34,007 bases of DNA, from the NCBI GenBank assembly GCA_015056105.1, contig SVGX01000020.1, positions 1 to 34,007 on the forward strand, written 5' to 3'. Position numbers and translations under genes: made by a program. How positions within the stretch are numbered: the stretch's first letter is position 1; each line of letters begins with the position of its first letter. Below, one piece after another: positions 5,744 through 26,823 of this stretch. This stretch comes from Clostridiales bacterium. GTDB lineage: Bacteria; Bacillota; Clostridia; Christensenellales; CAG-138. The notes below the pieces were generated by a model, which was given only the letters and a program-made list of their open reading frames with translations, did no database searches and was not told the DNA's origin.

Positions 5744-7081
5744 TTATTTTGCCATTTCATACATCGCCGCTGCGATGATCTTTGCGTTCTTCATGAGTTT
5801 ATCAAGCTCCACATACTCGTTGGGCTTGTGCTCCACCGCTTCATCTCCCGGGAAGATGGGGCCGAACGCAACGATGTTGGGCATGGCCTTGGCATAGGTG
5901 CCGCCGCCCATGCTGATCAAGCGGGCAGGCTCACCGGTCTGCTCTTCGTATACCTTCTGAAGGCAGCGGATGAGCTCCGTCTCCGGAGGCATGTAAAGCG
6001 CCTTTTTATGGGTATGGGAGACCTCTTCAAAGCCGCCTTCCGCCATCTTGCTTACAAGGACCTTAAAGAACCCATCAAAATCAATGGTAACGGGATAACG
6101 GATGTTGACGGAAACGGAAAGGGTATCACCCTCAAGCTTTGCAAGGCCCATGTTGAGGGTCAAATCTCCGGAAACATCGTCACGGCGGGCAACGCCGAGG
6201 CTTTCGCCGCGGGTCTGCATGCCGATGTTTTCGGCAATGAATTTGACCGCTTCGCCCCAATCGCCGTCAAAGCCAAGCTTGTCCATAGCAATGAACAGCC
6301 TGCCGATGGCGTTTTCGCCAAGCTCCGGTGTGCTGCCGTGAGCGTTGACACCGGCGGCGCTGAGCACTTTGCCCTCCGCGGTGACCTTTTCGGGCAGTTC
6401 ACTCTCAATCTCAAAGCTGAGCTCTGCCTTGGCAAATTCGGGCACCACATTGGAAGCGATGCCGGCGTTGAAAGAAGCAATGCGCCTCTTCGCATCCGCG
6501 CTCAGCTTGCGGGCAAAGGTAGCGTTCACGATGCCCTTTTCCGCATAGATAATGGGATATTCGCCATCGGGCGTAAAGCCCATCACGGGCAGTTCTTCGC
6601 CCTTTGCCACATAATGTTTGATGCAGCGGGAGCCTTTTTCTTCATCAAGGCCGAAGATGATACGGATGCGGCGGGAAAGGGGTACGCCCGCATCCTTGAT
6701 GGCCTTGAGCGCATAGAAAGCGGCAATGGTGGGGCCCTTGTCATCCACAGTGCCGCGGCCGTACATGCGGCCGTTGTCGATCACCGCGCCGTAAGGCGGA
6801 TAGTTCCAGCCGTCACCTTCGGGCACCACATCCACGTGGCCGAGCACGGCGATCATCTCTTCACCCGAGCCGTATTCCACATAACCGGCCATATCATCCA
6901 CGCTGGCGGTACGGAAGCCCAGCTTCTCACCAAGGGCAAGGCATGCCTCAAGGCACGCGTGCGGCCCGTCGCCAAAGGGGTGTTCGCCGCCATCCTCGCC
7001 TACGCTTTTGATGCGGATCAGTTCCTGCAGGCTGGCGATGAGTTCGCTTTCAAGCGCATCAAGCTCCCTGTTAAAATTCAT
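5744..7081 (-). CDS. pepV: Dipeptidase PepV (M20 metallopeptidase)
   Basis: 445 aa; LGHVDVVPEGDGW, YGRGTVDDKGPTIAAFYALK, GLDEEKGSRC, MGGGTYAKAMPNIVAFGP. Confidence 0.93.
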   Translation of the reverse strand: MNFNRELDALESELIASLQELIRIKSVGEDGGEHPFGDGPHACLEACLALGEKLGFRTASVDDMAGYVEYGSGEEMIAVLGHVDVVPEGDGWNYPPYGAVIDNGRMYGRGTVDDKGPTIAAFYALKAIKDAGVPLSRRIRIIFGLDEEKGSRCIKHYVAKGEELPVMGFTPDGEYPIIYAEKGIVNATFARKLSADAKRRIASFNAGIASNVVPEFAKAELSFEIESELPEKVTAEGKVLSAAGVNAHGSTPELGENAIGRLFIAMDKLGFDGDWGEAVKFIAENIGMQTRGESLGVARRDDVSGDLTLNMGLAKLEGDTLSVSVNIRYPVTIDFDGFFKVLVSKMAEGGFEEVSHTHKKALYMPPETELIRCLQKVYEEQTGEPARLISMGGGTYAKAMPNIVAFGPIFPGDEAVEHKPNEYVELDKLMKNAKIIAAAMYEMAK

Positions 7082-7240
7082 TTGTTTCTCCTTTTTTACA
7101 TCATTGATGGGATATGGTAAACGCAGTATATTTTGTTTATCATATCATGGATGGAATGCCTTTTCAATCTTATTTCGCCCCGCGTTCCGCTGTTCTGTGC
7201 CGCTTCAGCGTGGATCTTGCCGACCAATGGCGCCAATCAA

Positions 7241-18691: not shown

Positions 18692-19807
18692 TCAGATAAG
18701 ATTCATACCGGTTTCCTTGTTGAACATATGCACCACGTTGCCGCCGAAGGTGAAGTCCACCTTTGTGCCGAAGGTAAGATCCTGCTCACGGGCACCAAGG
18801 TCCAGCGTGGGGATGATGATGACCACATCCTTGCCGCCCATATTGGCATGCAGATGGATGGAACTGCCCATCATTTCGGAAACATCCACCGTTGCGGTAA
18901 TATGGGCATCCGCATCGCTTCTCGAGAGCATGATATGCTCGGGACGGATACCAAGGGTGATATCCTGCGCTTCGGCACCGGCAGCCCGCAGAGCGGCCTG
19001 TTTGTCTTCTGGCAGATAGACCTTCGCGCTGTCAAGCACCACGCTGTATCCCTTTCCGTCCTTTTCAAGACGGCCGTCGAAGAAGTTCATCTGCGGGGAG
19101 CCGATGAAGCCCGCCACGAAGATGTTGGCAGGGTGATTGAACACTTCCTGCGGGGTGCCGATCTGCTGGATGAAGCCATCCTTCATGATCACGATGCGGT
19201 CGCCAAGGGTCATGGCTTCGGTCTGATCGTGGGTCACGTAGACAAAGGTGGTGTTGATGCGCTGGCGGAGCTTGATGATCTCCGCGCGCATCTGGTTGCG
19301 CAGCTTGGCATCCAGGTTGGAAAGGGGTTCATCCATCAGGAATACCTGCGGATCGCGCACAATGGCACGGCCAATGGCAACGCGCTGCCGCTGACCGCCG
19401 GAAAGAGCCTTGGGCTTACGGTCAAGGTACTCTGTAATATCGAGGATCTCCGCAGCCTCACGCACCTTTTGGTCGATGACTTTCTTCTTCTCTTTGCGGA
19501 GTTTCAGGGCGAACGCCATGTTTTCATAGACCGTCATGTGCGGATACAGTGCGTAGTTCTGGAATACCATCGCGATATCGCGGTCTTTGGGCGGCACATC
19601 GTTCACAAGCTTGTCGCCGATGTATAGCTCGCCGGAAGAGATCTCTTCAAGACCCGCCACCATGCGCAGCGTGGTGGATTTCCCGCAGCCAGAGGGGCCG
19701 ACCAGTACGATGAATTCCTTGTCTGCGATCGTAAGATTGAATTCCTGGACCGCCACTACGTTTTTGTCGTAGACCTTCTTGACATCCTTTAACGTGACCT
19801 TTGCCAT
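18692..19807 (-). CDS. ABC transporter ATP-binding protein, MsmK/UgpC type
   Basis: [114 protein letters not shown]. Confidence 0.95.
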   Translation of the reverse strand: MAKVTLKDVKKVYDKNVVAVQEFNLTIADKEFIVLVGPSGCGKSTTLRMVAGLEEISSGELYIGDKLVNDVPPKDRDIAMVFQNYALYPHMTVYENMAFALKLRKEKKKVIDQKVREAAEILDITEYLDRKPKALSGGQRQRVAIGRAIVRDPQVFLMDEPLSNLDAKLRNQMRAEIIKLRQRINTTFVYVTHDQTEAMTLGDRIVIMKDGFIQQIGTPQEVFNHPANIFVAGFIGSPQMNFFDGRLEKDGKGYSVVLDSAKVYLPEDKQAALRAAGAEAQDITLGIRPEHIMLSRSDADAHITATVDVSEMMGSSIHLHANMGGKDVVIIIPTLDLGAREQDLTFGTKVDFTFGGNVVHMFNKETGMNLI

Positions 19808-20079
19808 ATTTCCCGGCTTTGGCGGCAAAGCCTCCGCTCATGTCGCCTCACACGCGCAGGCAGGCTGCGCCGTGCATTACGGCAGGTCTCCACACTGCCG
19901 CACCGCAAGCCAAACGGTAAAACGCTCCTTTTCTTTCGTACCGCCACGCATTTTGTGGAGTGCATGGCAGCCGCATGTTCATACATGGGAGCGTTCCCCT
20001 ATTCTGTGAAATTATCCCTTCTATGCATGTGGTATGCGAAAAGGCCGAAATGACTGTATTTTACCCGGATTTTTATATA

Positions 20080-21524: not shown

Positions 21525-21938
21525 TTAGCCTTCCGCTTTGAGGGCATAGGAGGCACCTGCGGTGACATCGGTCATATCCACGCCGGTCGTAGCATATTCG
21601 CCGTCAATGTAGAATGCCCAGTAAAGCGCATCCTCTTCCCAGCTGAGGGTCTCGCCGTTAACGGTTGTCACATAAAGGCCGTATTCGCTTTCTTCGCCGG
21701 CGATAAGCTCAACGGCAAGCAGCGCTTCGCCGACGGTCTTGGCATCGGTATTGACGGTCACGGCAATTGTTTCGCCGTCTTTACCCGTGATCTCAAGGGC
21801 AAATGCACTCGCGCCTTCGCCGAGCACATCGCCGTCCTTCGCCACGGCAGTGGCTTCGGTGTCACCTGCTTTGTCTGCACAGGCAAAAAGGGACAGCGCC
21901 ATCGTAAGCGCAAGAAGCAGAACAAGAATCTTTTTCAT
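21525..21938 (-). CDS. DUF4430 domain lipoprotein (predicted corrinoid-binding, transcobalamin-like)
   Basis: MKKILVLLLALTMALSLFACADK lipobox; TVNTDAKTVGEALLAVELIAGEESEYGLYVTTVNGETLSWEEDALYWAFYIDGEYATTGVDMTDVTAGASYALKAEG, a DUF4430 pattern; RBS AGGAG before ATG at 21938. Confidence 0.85.
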   Translation of the reverse strand: MKKILVLLLALTMALSLFACADKAGDTEATAVAKDGDVLGEGASAFALEITGKDGETIAVTVNTDAKTVGEALLAVELIAGEESEYGLYVTTVNGETLSWEEDALYWAFYIDGEYATTGVDMTDVTAGASYALKAEG

Positions 21939-22123
21939 TTTTTCATTCTCCTTTGTTTTAATCTTCCCCACGCCGGGGCCCACGGCGATGGGATAGGATA
22001 CAGCCCGCCTCCGCCTTCTTACCTTTTCATTTACGGCGGCGGTCACATACAGGTTTTTCACCTGCTTGGCAGGCCATGCTATCTTTTACAGCAAGCTGTA
22101 AAGACCGGTTTATGCGGGGCAAC

Positions 22124-22157
22124 AAAAAAGCGGCAATTCCTTTTTTGGAATCGCCGC
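22124..22157 (-). terminator. Terminator of the cobalamin riboswitch (expression platform)
   Basis: GCGGCGATTCC-AAAAAA-GGAATTGCCGC-TTTTTTG on minus strand. Confidence 0.85.
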
Positions 22158-22199
22158 AGCCGTTTTCCCGCGTCGTTTTCACCATTGCCCGTACTTGCA

Positions 22200-22413
22200 G
22201 GCAGAAGATGAACAAGATCGTCAAAGCAGTTCTCCTGACTTATGCATCAAAAGCTTTCACACAGCCTTCTCAGGTCTCCCCAATGGCCGGCTTTCACCAA
22301 TGTGTGAAGCCTCCGCATTTACAGTGGCGGTACCGTTCGTGAATTGCACACGATTCTCTTTCACCGCAGGGCTTTTACCGCACCCGCAGCTACTTCGGCG
22401 ATGATTCTGTTGT
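22200..22413 (-). promoter_or_regulatory. Cobalamin riboswitch (canonical) upstream of DUF4430 gene
   Basis: Minus strand contains GAATCGTGTGCAATTCACGAACGGTACCGCCACTGTAA and the B12 box AAGTCAGGAGAACTGCTTTGACGA, in canonical order and orientation. Confidence 0.92.
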
Positions 22414-22419
22414 GGCGTA

Positions 22420-22448
22420 AGGATATCACCCGCAGAAAAATTTGTCAA
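22420..22448 (-). promoter_or_regulatory. Promoter of DUF4430 riboswitch transcript
   Basis: Minus strand TTGACA (22443-22448), 17 nt spacer, TATCCT (22420-22425). Confidence 0.65.
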
Positions 22449-22463
22449 CCGCTAATTTTTTGA

Positions 22464-22492
22464 TTGCGAACGGCAAGGAATTGTGTTAGTAT
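22464..22492 (+). promoter_or_regulatory. Divergent promoter of ECF operon leader
   Basis: TTGCGA (22464-22469), 17 nt spacer, TAGTAT (22487-22492). Confidence 0.6.
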
Positions 22493-22498
22493 TTGTTT

Positions 22499-22717
22499 GC
22501 ATGCAAAAGCATGCGATGCATCCGATCAAAGGTTTCGGAATGGGGAAATCCCAACGGTACCAAGCCGCCGTAGACGGACACATATGCCCGATGTTCTCAT
22601 TGGCAAGCGCTGAGAAGAGACATCGCCACGGGCGTCCGGAGTCGGAATACAGGCCTTCGATCCGAGTGCGCAGGACTCTTGGGGGCTGTCCGGCGAGGCT
22701 TTTTGCACAGTTTATCC
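22499..22717 (+). promoter_or_regulatory. Divergent/atypical cobalamin-riboswitch-like leader upstream of ecfT
   Basis: CGGAATGGGGAAATCCCAACGGTACC...GCCGCCGTAGACGGA aligns by eye with the cobalamin core; B12-box-like GAGTCGGAATACAGGCCTTCG (22639-22659); P2-like pairing GATCAAAGG (22524-22532) with CCTTCGATC (22654-22662), one mismatch. Confidence 0.65.
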
Positions 22718-22746
22718 GCTCCCGTTTCCGGGAGCTTTTTCTTTTT
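22718..22746 (+). terminator. Terminator of the ECF leader (expression platform)
   Basis: GCTCCCG-tttc-CGGGAGC-TTTTTCTTTTT directly before the ecfT RBS. Confidence 0.85.
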
Positions 22747-22761: not shown

Positions 22762-23643
22762 TTGAAGCAAGATGCGTTTTCCCGCTGCCACCCGGCGGTG
22801 AGCTTTCTGTTTTTCATCCTTGTGATGCTCTTTGGTGTACTCATCCAGCATCCGGCATTTGTTCTTGGCGGAATATGCGCGGCGCTCTCATATTACCTTC
22901 TGCTTACGGGCGCAAAAGGGCTTAAGTTCCTGCTCTTTTCCCTTCCCGCGCTGATTTTGATCGCGCTTCTGAATCCCCTTGCGAACCGCAGCGGCAAAAC
23001 GCTGCTTTTCACCGTTTTCAACATCCCCTACCCCCTCGAATCCCTTGTTTACGGCACGGTGCTTTCCGGCATCTTCCTGCTGATGATACTCTGGTGCGGC
23101 TGCTGCGGCGCCGTGATGACCAGCGACAAATTCACAAGCTTATTTGCGAACCTGATCCCCGCCCTATCGCTGCTTCTTGTGATGGTGCTTCGCATGATCC
23201 CGAATTTCATGCGAAAAGGCCGGCAGATCACCGGCGCACGGATGGCCATCGGCAAAAGCGTTGGCGGCGATGCCAAATATACGGAAAAAGCAAAAAACGG
23301 CATGCTGCTTCTGAGCAGCCTTACCGATTGGGCACTTGAAGGCAGCATCGTCACCGCCGATTCCATGCGCAGCAGGGGCTACGGCACAGCAAAGAGGACA
23401 AGCTTCATGCAATACCGCTTTACCCTGCGCGACGGTATCCTGATGGTGCTGATGGGGTTCCTTGGCGCGGGCGTGATCGTTTCCATGTTCCGGGGCAATA
23501 CAGCCGCCGCCTTTACGCCGCTTTGGGATGTAGCGCCCCTTTCCCCCTTCGGCCTTGGCTGTTATCTGCTGCTTTTGCTTCTTCCCACTTTTCTGCATCT
23601 GAAGGAGGCCCTTACATGGCACATTTTGAGATCCGGGATCTGA
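22762..23643 (+). CDS. ecfT: ECF transporter transmembrane T component (EcfT/CbiQ-like), TTG start
   Basis: VSFLFFILVMLFGVLIQHPAFVLGG..., LRMIPNFMRKGRQITGARM, ADSMRSRGYGTAKRTSF (CbiQ-type A-R-G motif region); SD ACGGAGG 8 nt upstream of TTG; longer ORF would run through the riboswitch. Confidence 0.87.
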   Translation: MKQDAFSRCHPAVSFLFFILVMLFGVLIQHPAFVLGGICAALSYYLLLTGAKGLKFLLFSLPALILIALLNPLANRSGKTLLFTVFNIPYPLESLVYGTVLSGIFLLMILWCGCCGAVMTSDKFTSLFANLIPALSLLLVMVLRMIPNFMRKGRQITGARMAIGKSVGGDAKYTEKAKNGMLLLSSLTDWALEGSIVTADSMRSRGYGTAKRTSFMQYRFTLRDGILMVLMGFLGAGVIVSMFRGNTAAAFTPLWDVAPLSPFGLGCYLLLLLLPTFLHLKEALTWHILRSGI

Positions 23644-25280
23644 GCTTTTCCCACGCCACGGCACGGGGAAAGGAATCCCTTTCCCATGTGGATCTCACTG
23701 TGGAAAAAGGCGAATATATTGTGCTTTGCGGCAGGTCCGGCAGCGGCAAAACAACGCTGCTGCGGCATCTGAAAACCGTGCTTGCCCCCGGCGGCAAAAA
23801 GAGCGGCGCCGTGCTCTTTGACGGCAGGCCTCTTGAAGACATACCTGTCGGCGAACAGGCCGCAAAGATCGGCTTTGTAATGCAGGATCCGGATGACCAG
23901 ATCGTAACGGACAAGGTATGGCATGAACTTGCCTTCGGCCTTGAAAGCCTTGGCGTAGAGCCGAGAGCCATGCGGGCCCGCGTGGCGGAAATGGCATGTT
24001 ATTTCGGCATACAGGATTGGTTCCACCGGGATGTGGAATACCTGAGCGGCGGTCAGAAGCAGCTTTTAAACCTTGCTTCCGTCATGGCCATGCAGCCGGA
24101 AGTGCTGATTCTCGATGAACCCACAAGCCAGCTTGATCCTATCGCCGCTTCGGATTTTCTCAACACTGTCAGAAAGATCAACATTGAGCTTGGCACCACC
24201 GTCATCCTGACGGAGCACCGCCTTGAAGATATATTTCCCTATGCGGACCGGGCAGTGGTCATGGAGGGCGGCCGGATCATCGCGGATGATGTCCCGGGAA
24301 ATATCGGCGCAAAACTTTGGGCGCAGAAAAGTGAAATGTTTTCTGCCATGCCTGCGCCGGTGCGTGTGTTTTACGGCGCAGATCAGCAGGGTTCCTCTCC
24401 CCTTACGGTCAGAGACGGGCGTACCTGGCTCAGCCGCAGCTTCCCGGAAGGCGCAGCGATCAAGGCGCTTCCCGATGTGCCCCTCCCTTTGCCGGGCGAT
24501 CCACCGGCACTTTCCTTAAAAGAAGTCTGGTTTCGCTATGAAAAGGAAGGCGCCGACATCCTGCGGGGCGTCAATGCGGAAGTGCCGCAGGGCTGTATTT
24601 ACGGCATCGTCGGCGGCAACGGCGCGGGAAAATCCACCGCGCTCAAAGCCATTGCGGGCATCGTAAAGCCCTACAGGGGCAAGGTAAAACTCTTCGGCAA
24701 GCCTATTGAAAAGCATAAAGCCGCGGAGCTGTTCCACGGCGGTCTCGCCATGCTGCCCCAGGATCCCAAGAGCCTTTTTGCGGCGAAAACCGTCCGCGAA
24801 GAGCTGCTTGAAATGTGCAAGGACGAAGCGAAGATCGCTGCCGCTGCGGAAAACTGCGATATCCTCACCATCCTCGAAAGCCACCCCTATGACCTTTCCG
24901 GCGGCGAACAGCAGCGCGCAGCCCTTGCAAAGGTGTTGCTGACTGAACCGAAGCTGCTGCTGCTTGATGAGCCCACAAAGGGCATTGACGGTTTCTTTAA
25001 GGAAAAGCTGGCGGAGATCCTGAAAAAGCTGACCGCTGCGGGTATCACCGTGATCATGGTATCCCACGATGTGGAATTCTGTGCCAAACATGCGGATCTT
25101 GTTTCCATGTTCTTTGACGGGCAGATCCTTACCACCGATACGCCGCGGCACTTCTTCGGCGGCAACAGCTTCTATACCACCGCCGCCAACCGTATGAGCC
25201 GCCATGTGTTTTCCATGGCTGTTACGGCGGAAGATGTGGTCGCCCTTTACCGCAGCAACCGGGAACAGGCACAGAAATGA
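23616..25280 (+). CDS. ECF transporter ATPase, two fused ABC domains (EcfA1-EcfA2 type)
   Basis: Two Walker A motifs (GRSGSGKTTLL; GGNGAGKSTALK), two signature motifs (LSGGQKQLLNLA; LSGGEQQRAALA); overlaps ecfT stop. Confidence 0.95.
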   Translation: MAHFEIRDLSFSHATARGKESLSHVDLTVEKGEYIVLCGRSGSGKTTLLRHLKTVLAPGGKKSGAVLFDGRPLEDIPVGEQAAKIGFVMQDPDDQIVTDKVWHELAFGLESLGVEPRAMRARVAEMACYFGIQDWFHRDVEYLSGGQKQLLNLASVMAMQPEVLILDEPTSQLDPIAASDFLNTVRKINIELGTTVILTEHRLEDIFPYADRAVVMEGGRIIADDVPGNIGAKLWAQKSEMFSAMPAPVRVFYGADQQGSSPLTVRDGRTWLSRSFPEGAAIKALPDVPLPLPGDPPALSLKEVWFRYEKEGADILRGVNAEVPQGCIYGIVGGNGAGKSTALKAIAGIVKPYRGKVKLFGKPIEKHKAAELFHGGLAMLPQDPKSLFAAKTVREELLEMCKDEAKIAAAAENCDILTILESHPYDLSGGEQQRAALAKVLLTEPKLLLLDEPTKGIDGFFKEKLAEILKKLTAAGITVIMVSHDVEFCAKHADLVSMFFDGQILTTDTPRHFFGGNSFYTTAANRMSRHVFSMAVTAEDVVALYRSNREQAQK

Positions 25281-25347: not shown

Positions 25348-25932
25348 ATGAAACAGGAGCTGTTCACACTTGCGGCGCAAATGGGCTTCCATGCGGCGCT
25401 CATCCCCACGGAAGATGTGCCTGTAGATGGAAAATTCCGCGCTTTCTGCGAAGAAAACCTTTGCGGCCGGTATAACGCAAACTATTCCTGCCCGCCGGAT
25501 TGCGGCAGCGTGGAAGAGCTTCATGAAAGGCTGCTGCGGGAAAGGCATGCTCTTGTCGTTGAAACGGTACACCCCATTGAAAGCTATCAGGATAAAGCTG
25601 CCGTCCTGCAAGCAAAAACCAGTCACAACAAGGCTGTACTTCACCTGATGGAAGAGATGCACCGCCGCGGATATCAGGGCTTCTGCACGGGCTACAACGG
25701 CTGCCCGCTGTGCGAACCCTGCCTCAGAACAAAAAACCTGCCCTGCAGGTACCCCAGTCGGCGTATCAGCTGCATGAGCGCATACTGCATTGATGTGGCT
25801 TCCCTTGCGGCGCACTGCGGCCTTCCCTTTGCATGGGATCCCCGGAAGCTTCACCTTTTCGGGCTGATCGCCTTCCGCAGCGGCAATGCCGAATGCCCTT
25901 CCCCAACAGGAGGAACCTATGAAAAAAGCTAA
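25348..25932 (+). CDS. DUF2284 predicted metal-binding protein
   Basis: FCEENLCGRYNANYSCPPDCGSVEEL...CTGYNGCPLCEPCLRTKNLPCRYPSRRISCMSAYCIDV; Cys-rich DUF2284 pattern. Confidence 0.85.
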   Translation: MKQELFTLAAQMGFHAALIPTEDVPVDGKFRAFCEENLCGRYNANYSCPPDCGSVEELHERLLRERHALVVETVHPIESYQDKAAVLQAKTSHNKAVLHLMEEMHRRGYQGFCTGYNGCPLCEPCLRTKNLPCRYPSRRISCMSAYCIDVASLAAHCGLPFAWDPRKLHLFGLIAFRSGNAECPSPTGGTYEKS

Positions 25933-26614
25933 GATCGCGACGGTCATCGCGCTGATCCTGATCCCGCTGACAGTCATCTTCGGCAGAAAGCTGCCGGGCC
26001 GCTCCTATTATATGACGAGCATGCTCGTGATCGCGGAGATCATGGTACCCTTTTTCCTTTCCTTTGAAGGCAGAAAGCCGCAGGCGCGGGAGCTTGTTCT
26101 TCTCGCTGTGCTCTCCGCCCTTGCCATTGCAAGCCGCGTGGTGATCCCCATTCCCAATTTTAAAGCCACCTATGCGGTGATCATGCTTGCGGGCATCGCC
26201 TTCGGTGCGGAAAGCGGCTTCCTTGTCGGCGCAGTCACGGCGCTTGCCAGCAACTTTTTCTTCGGACAGGGGCCGCACACGCCGTGGCAGATGATGGCCT
26301 ATGGCGTAAGCGGCCTTGTGATGGGGCTGTTGTTTGCAAAAGGATGCCTGCCCCACAATCGACTTGCGATGGGATTCTCCGGCGCCGCGGCAGTCATGCT
26401 GATTACGGGCCCGCTTCTTGATTCAAGCTCCGTCTTTATCATGCTTTCAAGGCTCAGCCCGGAAAACATCCTCGCGATTTACCTTGCGGGTGTCCCCATT
26501 AACGCAAGCCAAGCGGTCTGCACATTCATCATACTCTTTCTTCTCGGCAAACCTTTCCTTGAGAAGCTGGAGCGCATCAAGCTCAGGTATGGGATGGGCG
26601 ATACGGTAAATTGA
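25919..26614 (+). CDS. ECF transporter substrate-binding S component (predicted cobalamin-type)
   Basis: MKKAKIATVIALILIPLTVIFGRKLPGRSYYMTSMLVIAEIMVPFF...VVIPIPNFKATYAVIMLAGIAFGAESGFLVGAVTALASNFFFGQGPHTPWQM; overlaps DUF2284 stop. Confidence 0.87.
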   Translation: MKKAKIATVIALILIPLTVIFGRKLPGRSYYMTSMLVIAEIMVPFFLSFEGRKPQARELVLLAVLSALAIASRVVIPIPNFKATYAVIMLAGIAFGAESGFLVGAVTALASNFFFGQGPHTPWQMMAYGVSGLVMGLLFAKGCLPHNRLAMGFSGAAAVMLITGPLLDSSSVFIMLSRLSPENILAIYLAGVPINASQAVCTFIILFLLGKPFLEKLERIKLRYGMGDTVN

Positions 26615-26668: not shown

Positions 26669-26823
26669 TTTGAAGCATAAAGATGGCAGGCCGCATAATG
26701 GTCTTTATCCACCTTGTGGAAATCCGGCGTGACCCTGGTGCAGATATCCTTGCAGTAATCGCAGCGGGGCGCAAAGCGACAGCCCGCAGGCGGATCGATG
26801 GGCGCTGTGATCTTGCTCCGCAT
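26660..26823 (-). pseudogene. C-terminal remnant of an oligopeptide ABC transporter ATPase (OppD/DppD type)
   Basis: ITAPIDPPAGCRFAPRCDYCKDICTRVTPDFHKVDKDHYAACHLY is the Cys-motif C-terminus of Opp/Dpp ATPases; no ABC domain upstream; reading frame runs into the ECF terminator. Confidence 0.8.

Follow-up and report, generated by a model that had tools for sequence, protein, structure and literature searches.

A divergent control region with cobalamin-type riboswitch leaders, probably serving a corrinoid uptake system in a gut bacterium

The region from 22.0 to 22.75 kb of the window (the whole 34,007-nucleotide stretch of DNA that was analysed) is likely to be the divergent control region of a corrinoid (B12) uptake system, with two outward-facing promoters that each feed a riboswitch leader. 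This architecture was drawn from sequence, homology, conservation and base pairing. It is clear that two cobalamin-type leaders lie back-to-back, as a preliminary description of this DNA had proposed; the minus-strand leader was identified by Rfam family RF00174 and the plus-strand leader by a family model, R1. Each has its own promoter and Rho-independent terminator, patterns that were found here and are kept in the sister genome, and 15 bp separate the two -35 boxes, in agreement with that description. Its view of two sensors serving two parts of one uptake system holds for the two divergent leaders and for the CbrT-like S component, but the number two does not, since a probable third element is present. 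The features are listed in Table 1.

The window makes up a single contig of a gut bacterium's draft genome, which is 1.8 Mb in size. The closest relative compared (G053, the sister genome) carries the same locus and retains all three cobalamin elements together with the promoters and terminators. A scan of a genome collection with the T protein returned one relative only, the sister MAG RGIG3058 (Clostridia, goat rectum). Elsewhere in the window are a large RNA, raiA (RF03072, 9962-10168, minus strand, 199.1 bits), and a malK-I RNA (RF03069, 19802-19978, minus strand, 140.8 bits) before a malK-like ABC ATPase gene (18692-19828, minus strand).

Table 1. Features of the divergent locus, in window coordinates.
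Feature	Position	Strand	Basis
DUF4430 lipoprotein gene; transcobalamin-C-like domain	21525..21938	-	PF14478 30.1 bits; PDB 3u7z E 2e-10
Hairpin aligned to P13 of RF01482	21971..21987	-	ahead of the Shine-Dalgarno sequence of DUF4430 by about 30 nt
Third, compact cobalamin-like element	22000..22077	-	P1, P4, P5, P6; P7 short or absent; between minus terminator and DUF4430
Rho-independent terminator, minus leader	22124..22157	-	pattern; kept in sister; strong
P13 hairpin, minus riboswitch; loop CAAGUA, GUAC complementary to L5	22186..22203	-	sequence; kept in sister
Class-I cobalamin riboswitch aptamer (RF00174), before DUF4430 lipoprotein gene	22208..22410	-	73.7 bits, E 1.5e-16
Minus promoter TTGACA / TATCCT, 17-nt spacer, extended -10	22420..22448	-	10/12 matches; kept in sister
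Plus promoter TTGCGA / TAGTAT, 17-nt spacer, TG extended -10	22464..22492	+	read by eye; 8/12
Diverged cobalamin-type aptamer, before ECF operon	22524..22662	+	R1 match; P1, P4, P5, P6, long P6 arm, B12 box AGUCGGAAUAC
P13 hairpin, plus leader	22673..22691	+	sequence; kept in sister
Rho-independent terminator, plus leader; stem 22718-22735 and T tract	22718..22746	+	pattern; kept in sister
ECF T component, TTG start	22762..23643	+	position, hydrophobic sequence, orthologues adjoining ECF ATPase
ECF ATPase, two fused ABC domains	23616..25280	+	TIGR04520, ABC_tran x2
DUF2284 predicted metal-binding protein	25348..25932	+	PF10050 131.8 bits
ECF S component, CbrT-like	25919..26614	+	PF07155 63.3 bits; best PDB match 6fnp_A E 5.9e-8

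The substrate of the system is indicated by its S component. The closest solved relative of this protein is chain A (CbrT) of 6FNP, the B12-specific ECF-CbrT complex (PMC5997447), with the second-best match at 0.009; the resemblance to a B12-specific component therefore makes the locus very probably a corrinoid uptake system. The T component gave no match to a Pfam family. The DUF4430 product, judged from its domain, is probably a corrinoid-binding lipoprotein. In many relatives the DUF4430 gene lies directly upstream of the T gene, and it therefore appears that one operon has probably been split into two divergent ones in the genus of the window. In three other genera (L060, L064, L166) the T-gene orthologue follows a cobalamin leader of matching orientation that is either canonical or strong. 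B12-binding domains are also encoded in the genome, one of them within an 825-aa frame.

Related arrangements were seen at other loci. Cobalamin-type leaders precede T genes in two further genomes, at L066 (1163-1336, plus strand) and L166 (1149-1274, plus strand), and one of the two (38.7 bits) has a greatly altered arm. At L084 (G024:C32) two tandem RF00174 aptamers (6670-6858 and 6937-7129, minus strand), 79 bp apart, lie upstream of an operon for an 878-aa protein, a lipoprotein, a T gene and an ECF ATPase.

The minus leader is, by its sequence, a class-I cobalamin riboswitch and a predicted corrinoid sensor. Its aptamer passes the RF00174 gathering cut-off (31.5 bits), has the core and B12 box quoted in the preliminary description, and is the sole RF00174 match in the source genome; its core scores 97.7 bits with R1, and the sister aptamer scores 75.3 bits with RF00174. 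The promoter boxes (TTGACA at 22448-22443, TATCCT at 22425-22420) stand just upstream of the aptamer, and the terminator consists of a stem (22157-22130) followed by a T tract. The GCAAGUACGG motif of the P13 hairpin is found again in L064. An antiterminator is not clear in the sequence of the minus leader.

The plus leader is more diverged. An Rfam scan of both strands, as the preliminary description had suggested, recovered the minus leader as RF00174, but for the plus leader none of the 4227 families scanned matched at E<=10, nor was the gathering cut-off reached. The plus leader thus fails the Rfam models and yet is recognised by R1, a covariance model built without it from the P3-P6 cores of 42 RF00174 matches in the same bacterial family. 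The R1 alignment includes the canonical minus-type aptamer of the sister genome (L085) and excludes both the plus element and the third element. Known helices were written onto this alignment and then checked by pairing: 96.3% of cells pair, two-sided changes occur in 20 of the 26 pairs, and no slid or shuffled version of the helices came near the real pairing. Run on the window with filters off, R1 matched the plus element (22535-22652) at 41.4 bits, with an E-value of 3.6e-9 in the window and 1.9e-7 at whole-genome scale, values that are rough since the calibration was shortened; the sister element scored 46.7 bits. Apart from the minus aptamer, the plus element and the third element, R1 found nothing in the window above 15.8 bits, a weak match at 26717-26793 (plus strand) that was taken as noise, and in the whole 1.8-Mb genome its best match outside recognised cobalamin elements was 11.3 bits. 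This score and its genome-scale E-value show that the plus leader descends from a cobalamin riboswitch. The plain Rfam scan was rejected as a refutation, because its E-values are multiplied by 4227 families and R1 detects the aptamer.

The preliminary description had called the plus aptamer from short motifs alone, which would be in keeping with a chance match, or with a mere reflection of the minus aptamer read in antisense. The E-values and the score of the sister element argue against this, as does the fact that the coordinates do not overlap those of the minus aptamer; score and conservation together refute such a reading, which we regard as scarcely credible. By DNA similarity search of 103 genomes of the family the plus leader was found in the sister genome only, the other five matches being fragments of 23-30 nt.

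The plus aptamer is class-I-like in its anatomy, with P1, P4, P5 and P6 helices and a B12 box. P1 pairs GATCAAAGGTT with GGCCTTCGATC, with one A.C mismatch that is A-U in the sister; P4 (UGGG/CCCA) closes a GAAAU loop, P5 (CGG/CCG) closes UACCAAG, and P6 is CCG/CGG, a pairing present in 13 of the 42 family members. Within the long arm is a motif typical of the family, CAUUGGC..GCUGAGAAG; the B12 box reads AGUCGGAAUACAGGCC. P2 is missing, L5 is enlarged, and there is no P3 next to the GGGAA strand, where the UCG/CAG positions form no helix. Downstream, CUUGG of L13 (22678-22682) is complementary to CCAAG of L5 (22560-22564), a match that is invariant in the sister; as an estimate of chance, a 5-mer complement within a hairpin loop arose in 2.5% of shuffles. 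A fold truncated at 22728 shows an antiterminator, in which UGGGGGC of L13 is able to pair with the terminator segment GCUCCCG. The promoter boxes (TTGCGA at 22464-22469 and TGT-TAGTAT with the -10 at 22487-22492) were unlisted by the promoter scanner, and their sequences and spacing are identical in the sister genome. A hairpin, GCATGC-AAAA-GCATGC (22499-22514), stands where the plus transcript is predicted to start; its sister counterpart, GCATGT-GATG-ACATGC, contains a compensated pair.

These differences from the canonical form raise the question of whether the plus leader still senses corrinoid. It could be a decayed or constitutive leader, of cobalamin descent but blind to corrinoid, with the lipoprotein side alone regulated; its lack of an Rfam match, its missing P2 and P3 and its occurrence in two genomes only would all fit. 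The aptamer core is, however, better conserved than the coding sequence of its gene: identity to the sister is 95% in the 60-nt core, 92% in the B12 box and 96% in the P13 hairpin, compared with 85% in the T gene. Furthermore, paired changes keep the arms, one being two-sided (A-U to G-C, in the arm) and several preserving wobble pairs, and the terminator and L5-L13 complement are also kept. Decay is quite unlikely in our view. The thermodynamic fold of the element in the window is weak (z -1.6), and the minimum-energy fold of the full-length leader prefers a structure that breaks P1 and disfavours the aptamer, in a calculation that ignores the kissing loop and the ligand. With the variant known from two genomes, covariation is thin.

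Alternatively, the plus leader may sense with an altered preference, for instance for cobinamide or another corrinoid, the two sides then differing in the corrinoid or the concentration to which they respond. Compared with the minus aptamer its J3/4 is changed (UCGGAAUGGGG), P3 is missing, L5 is larger and the B12 box is a variant, and corrinoid selectivity is known to vary among cobalamin riboswitches (PMC9600662). Box variants of this kind (AGUCAGAAUAC) are, however, also found in ordinary family members, e.g. L060 and L084, and a changed preference is considered unlikely.

Each leader is most likely a corrinoid OFF switch, a sign that we infer, together with ligand binding. In a repressing corrinoid riboswitch, pairing of L5 with L13 stabilises P13 and hence the terminator, with kissing-loop and antiterminator logic (PMC10653944); the plus leader has the same layout as that riboswitch, including the L5-L13 complement and the UGGGGGC/GCUCCCG antiterminator. 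The minus transcript would run through the class-I riboswitch and its terminator, then probably through the compact second cobalamin-like element, and into the DUF4430 gene; the plus transcript would run through the diverged class-I-like riboswitch and its terminator into the genes for T, ATPase, DUF2284 and the CbrT-like S component. When corrinoid is plentiful, each aptamer would bind it and L5 would pair with L13, stabilising P13 so that the terminator forms and both halves of the system are switched off. When corrinoid is scarce, the bases around L13 would instead pair with an arm of the terminator and transcription would continue. It is plausible that the two operons have different corrinoid thresholds.

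The third element, which is absent from the preliminary description, is probably also of cobalamin descent. R1 matched it (22006-22071, minus strand) at 20.5 bits, with an E-value of 8e-4 in the window and 0.05 at genome scale, and matched its sister counterpart at 29.0 bits (E 2e-6). Its best Rfam family in both genomes is RF01482 (AdoCbl), at 17.1 bits in the window and 18.6 in the sister, far under the gathering cut-off of 50 in each. It folds as a compact P1-P4-P5-P6 structure (z -4.0 in the window, -4.5 in the sister), and P1 shows one two-sided change (C-G to U-A) and two one-sided changes that keep pairing. A second model, R2, made from compact elements of other genera, has its best match in the window here at 17.6 bits, which is weak support, and gives none at whole-genome scale. 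Conserved residues of the binding core are lacking, UGCCAAG and CGGAGG/CGGCAGGGG standing in place of the GGGAA and B12-box strands.

The element might nevertheless work as a compact, class-II-like riboswitch, in which case the lipoprotein leader would be a tandem gate for a single ligand that acts first at the terminator and second, probably, at translation. Consistent with this are the R1 scores, the choice of the same Rfam family in both genomes, the compensated P1 and the fold, and tandem and bi-mechanism AdoCbl riboswitches have been described (PMC9481103). In several other genera, too, DUF4430 genes are preceded by compact R1 matches, and two of these matches pass the AdoCbl-II family RF01689 (G062, G070). 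Against it, the J3/4 GGGAA and the AGUCGGAACGCCU box of the relatives are altered, P7 is lost in the window, the genome-scale E-value is only 0.05, and identity to the sister is 76.5%, no better than in the flanks. Function of the element is rated at slightly under an even chance, and it may be a relic. It is unlikely, in our view, that the 0.75-kb region holds three working sensors of different structure (one of canonical class I, one derived from class I but without P3, and one compact and class-II-like whose core has been rebuilt), each set to its own corrinoid or concentration and together switching lipoprotein and transporter at different points.

Compact cobalamin elements before DUF4430 in other genera are those of L113, L114, L115, L117, L120, L121, L122 and L128, with L113 and L115 under the Rfam cut-offs. 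A further compact element (G000:C29:12333-12387, plus strand; L149, about 1501-1555) scores 47.7 bits with R1, is missed by RF00174 and precedes an apparent anaerobic ribonucleotide reductase gene; R1 also gave matches of the same size in three further genomes from that genus.

These results mean that scans of annotated genomes miss diverged cobalamin riboswitches, even ones driving a B12 transporter. The locus offers a natural side-by-side pair, perhaps a trio, of corrinoid sensors in which differences in threshold or selectivity are directly measurable, and it links DUF4430 lipoproteins with CbrT-like ECF transporters and with cobalamin riboswitches in what is probably a system for corrinoid capture. 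A literature search returned no paper on divergent cobalamin pairs; its coverage of older work was incomplete, so that absence from the literature is not established.

The arrangement had been described as unusual, a view that found no support: among the 150 matches listed, no fewer than 15 further genomes from the family have divergent RF00174 pairs, with aptamers 112-291 bp apart, at another locus (L069-L083). The divergent layout is therefore recurrent in the family. Those pairs resemble the present one in their head-to-head aptamers but differ in their genes, in having two canonical aptamers and in lacking an ECF operon; with gene names assigned by sequence reading, a permease, a BtuD-like ATPase and a cobyrinate amidase-like gene lie on one side and lipoproteins or a CbiK-like gene on the other. 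Compared with RF00174 class-I riboswitches, the minus aptamer is alike in full, whereas the plus aptamer shares P1, P4, P5, P6, the P6 arm motif, the B12 box, the L5-L13 complement and the terminator but differs in lacking P2 and P3, in its larger L5 and in falling under Rfam detection. The third element shares with AdoCbl (RF01482) and AdoCbl-II (RF01689) a short P1-P4-P5-P6 core before DUF4430, as in G062 and G070, but differs in scoring 17-19 bits against the RF01482 cut-off, in its altered core and in having no terminator of its own. If it works, the lipoprotein leader would be like the tandem pseudo-cooperative or bi-mechanism AdoCbl riboswitches (PMC9481103) in that two elements for the same ligand would follow one another ahead of a single gene; here, however, the series joins a class-I element to a compact one, and an additional leader points in the opposite direction. 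Relative to the ECF-CbrT transporter (6FNP), of which the S component is a sequence relative, the locus differs in its dedicated T component and fused ATPase, its extra DUF2284 protein and its DUF4430 lipoprotein. What is special to this locus is the mixture of riboswitch variants and the extra compact element.
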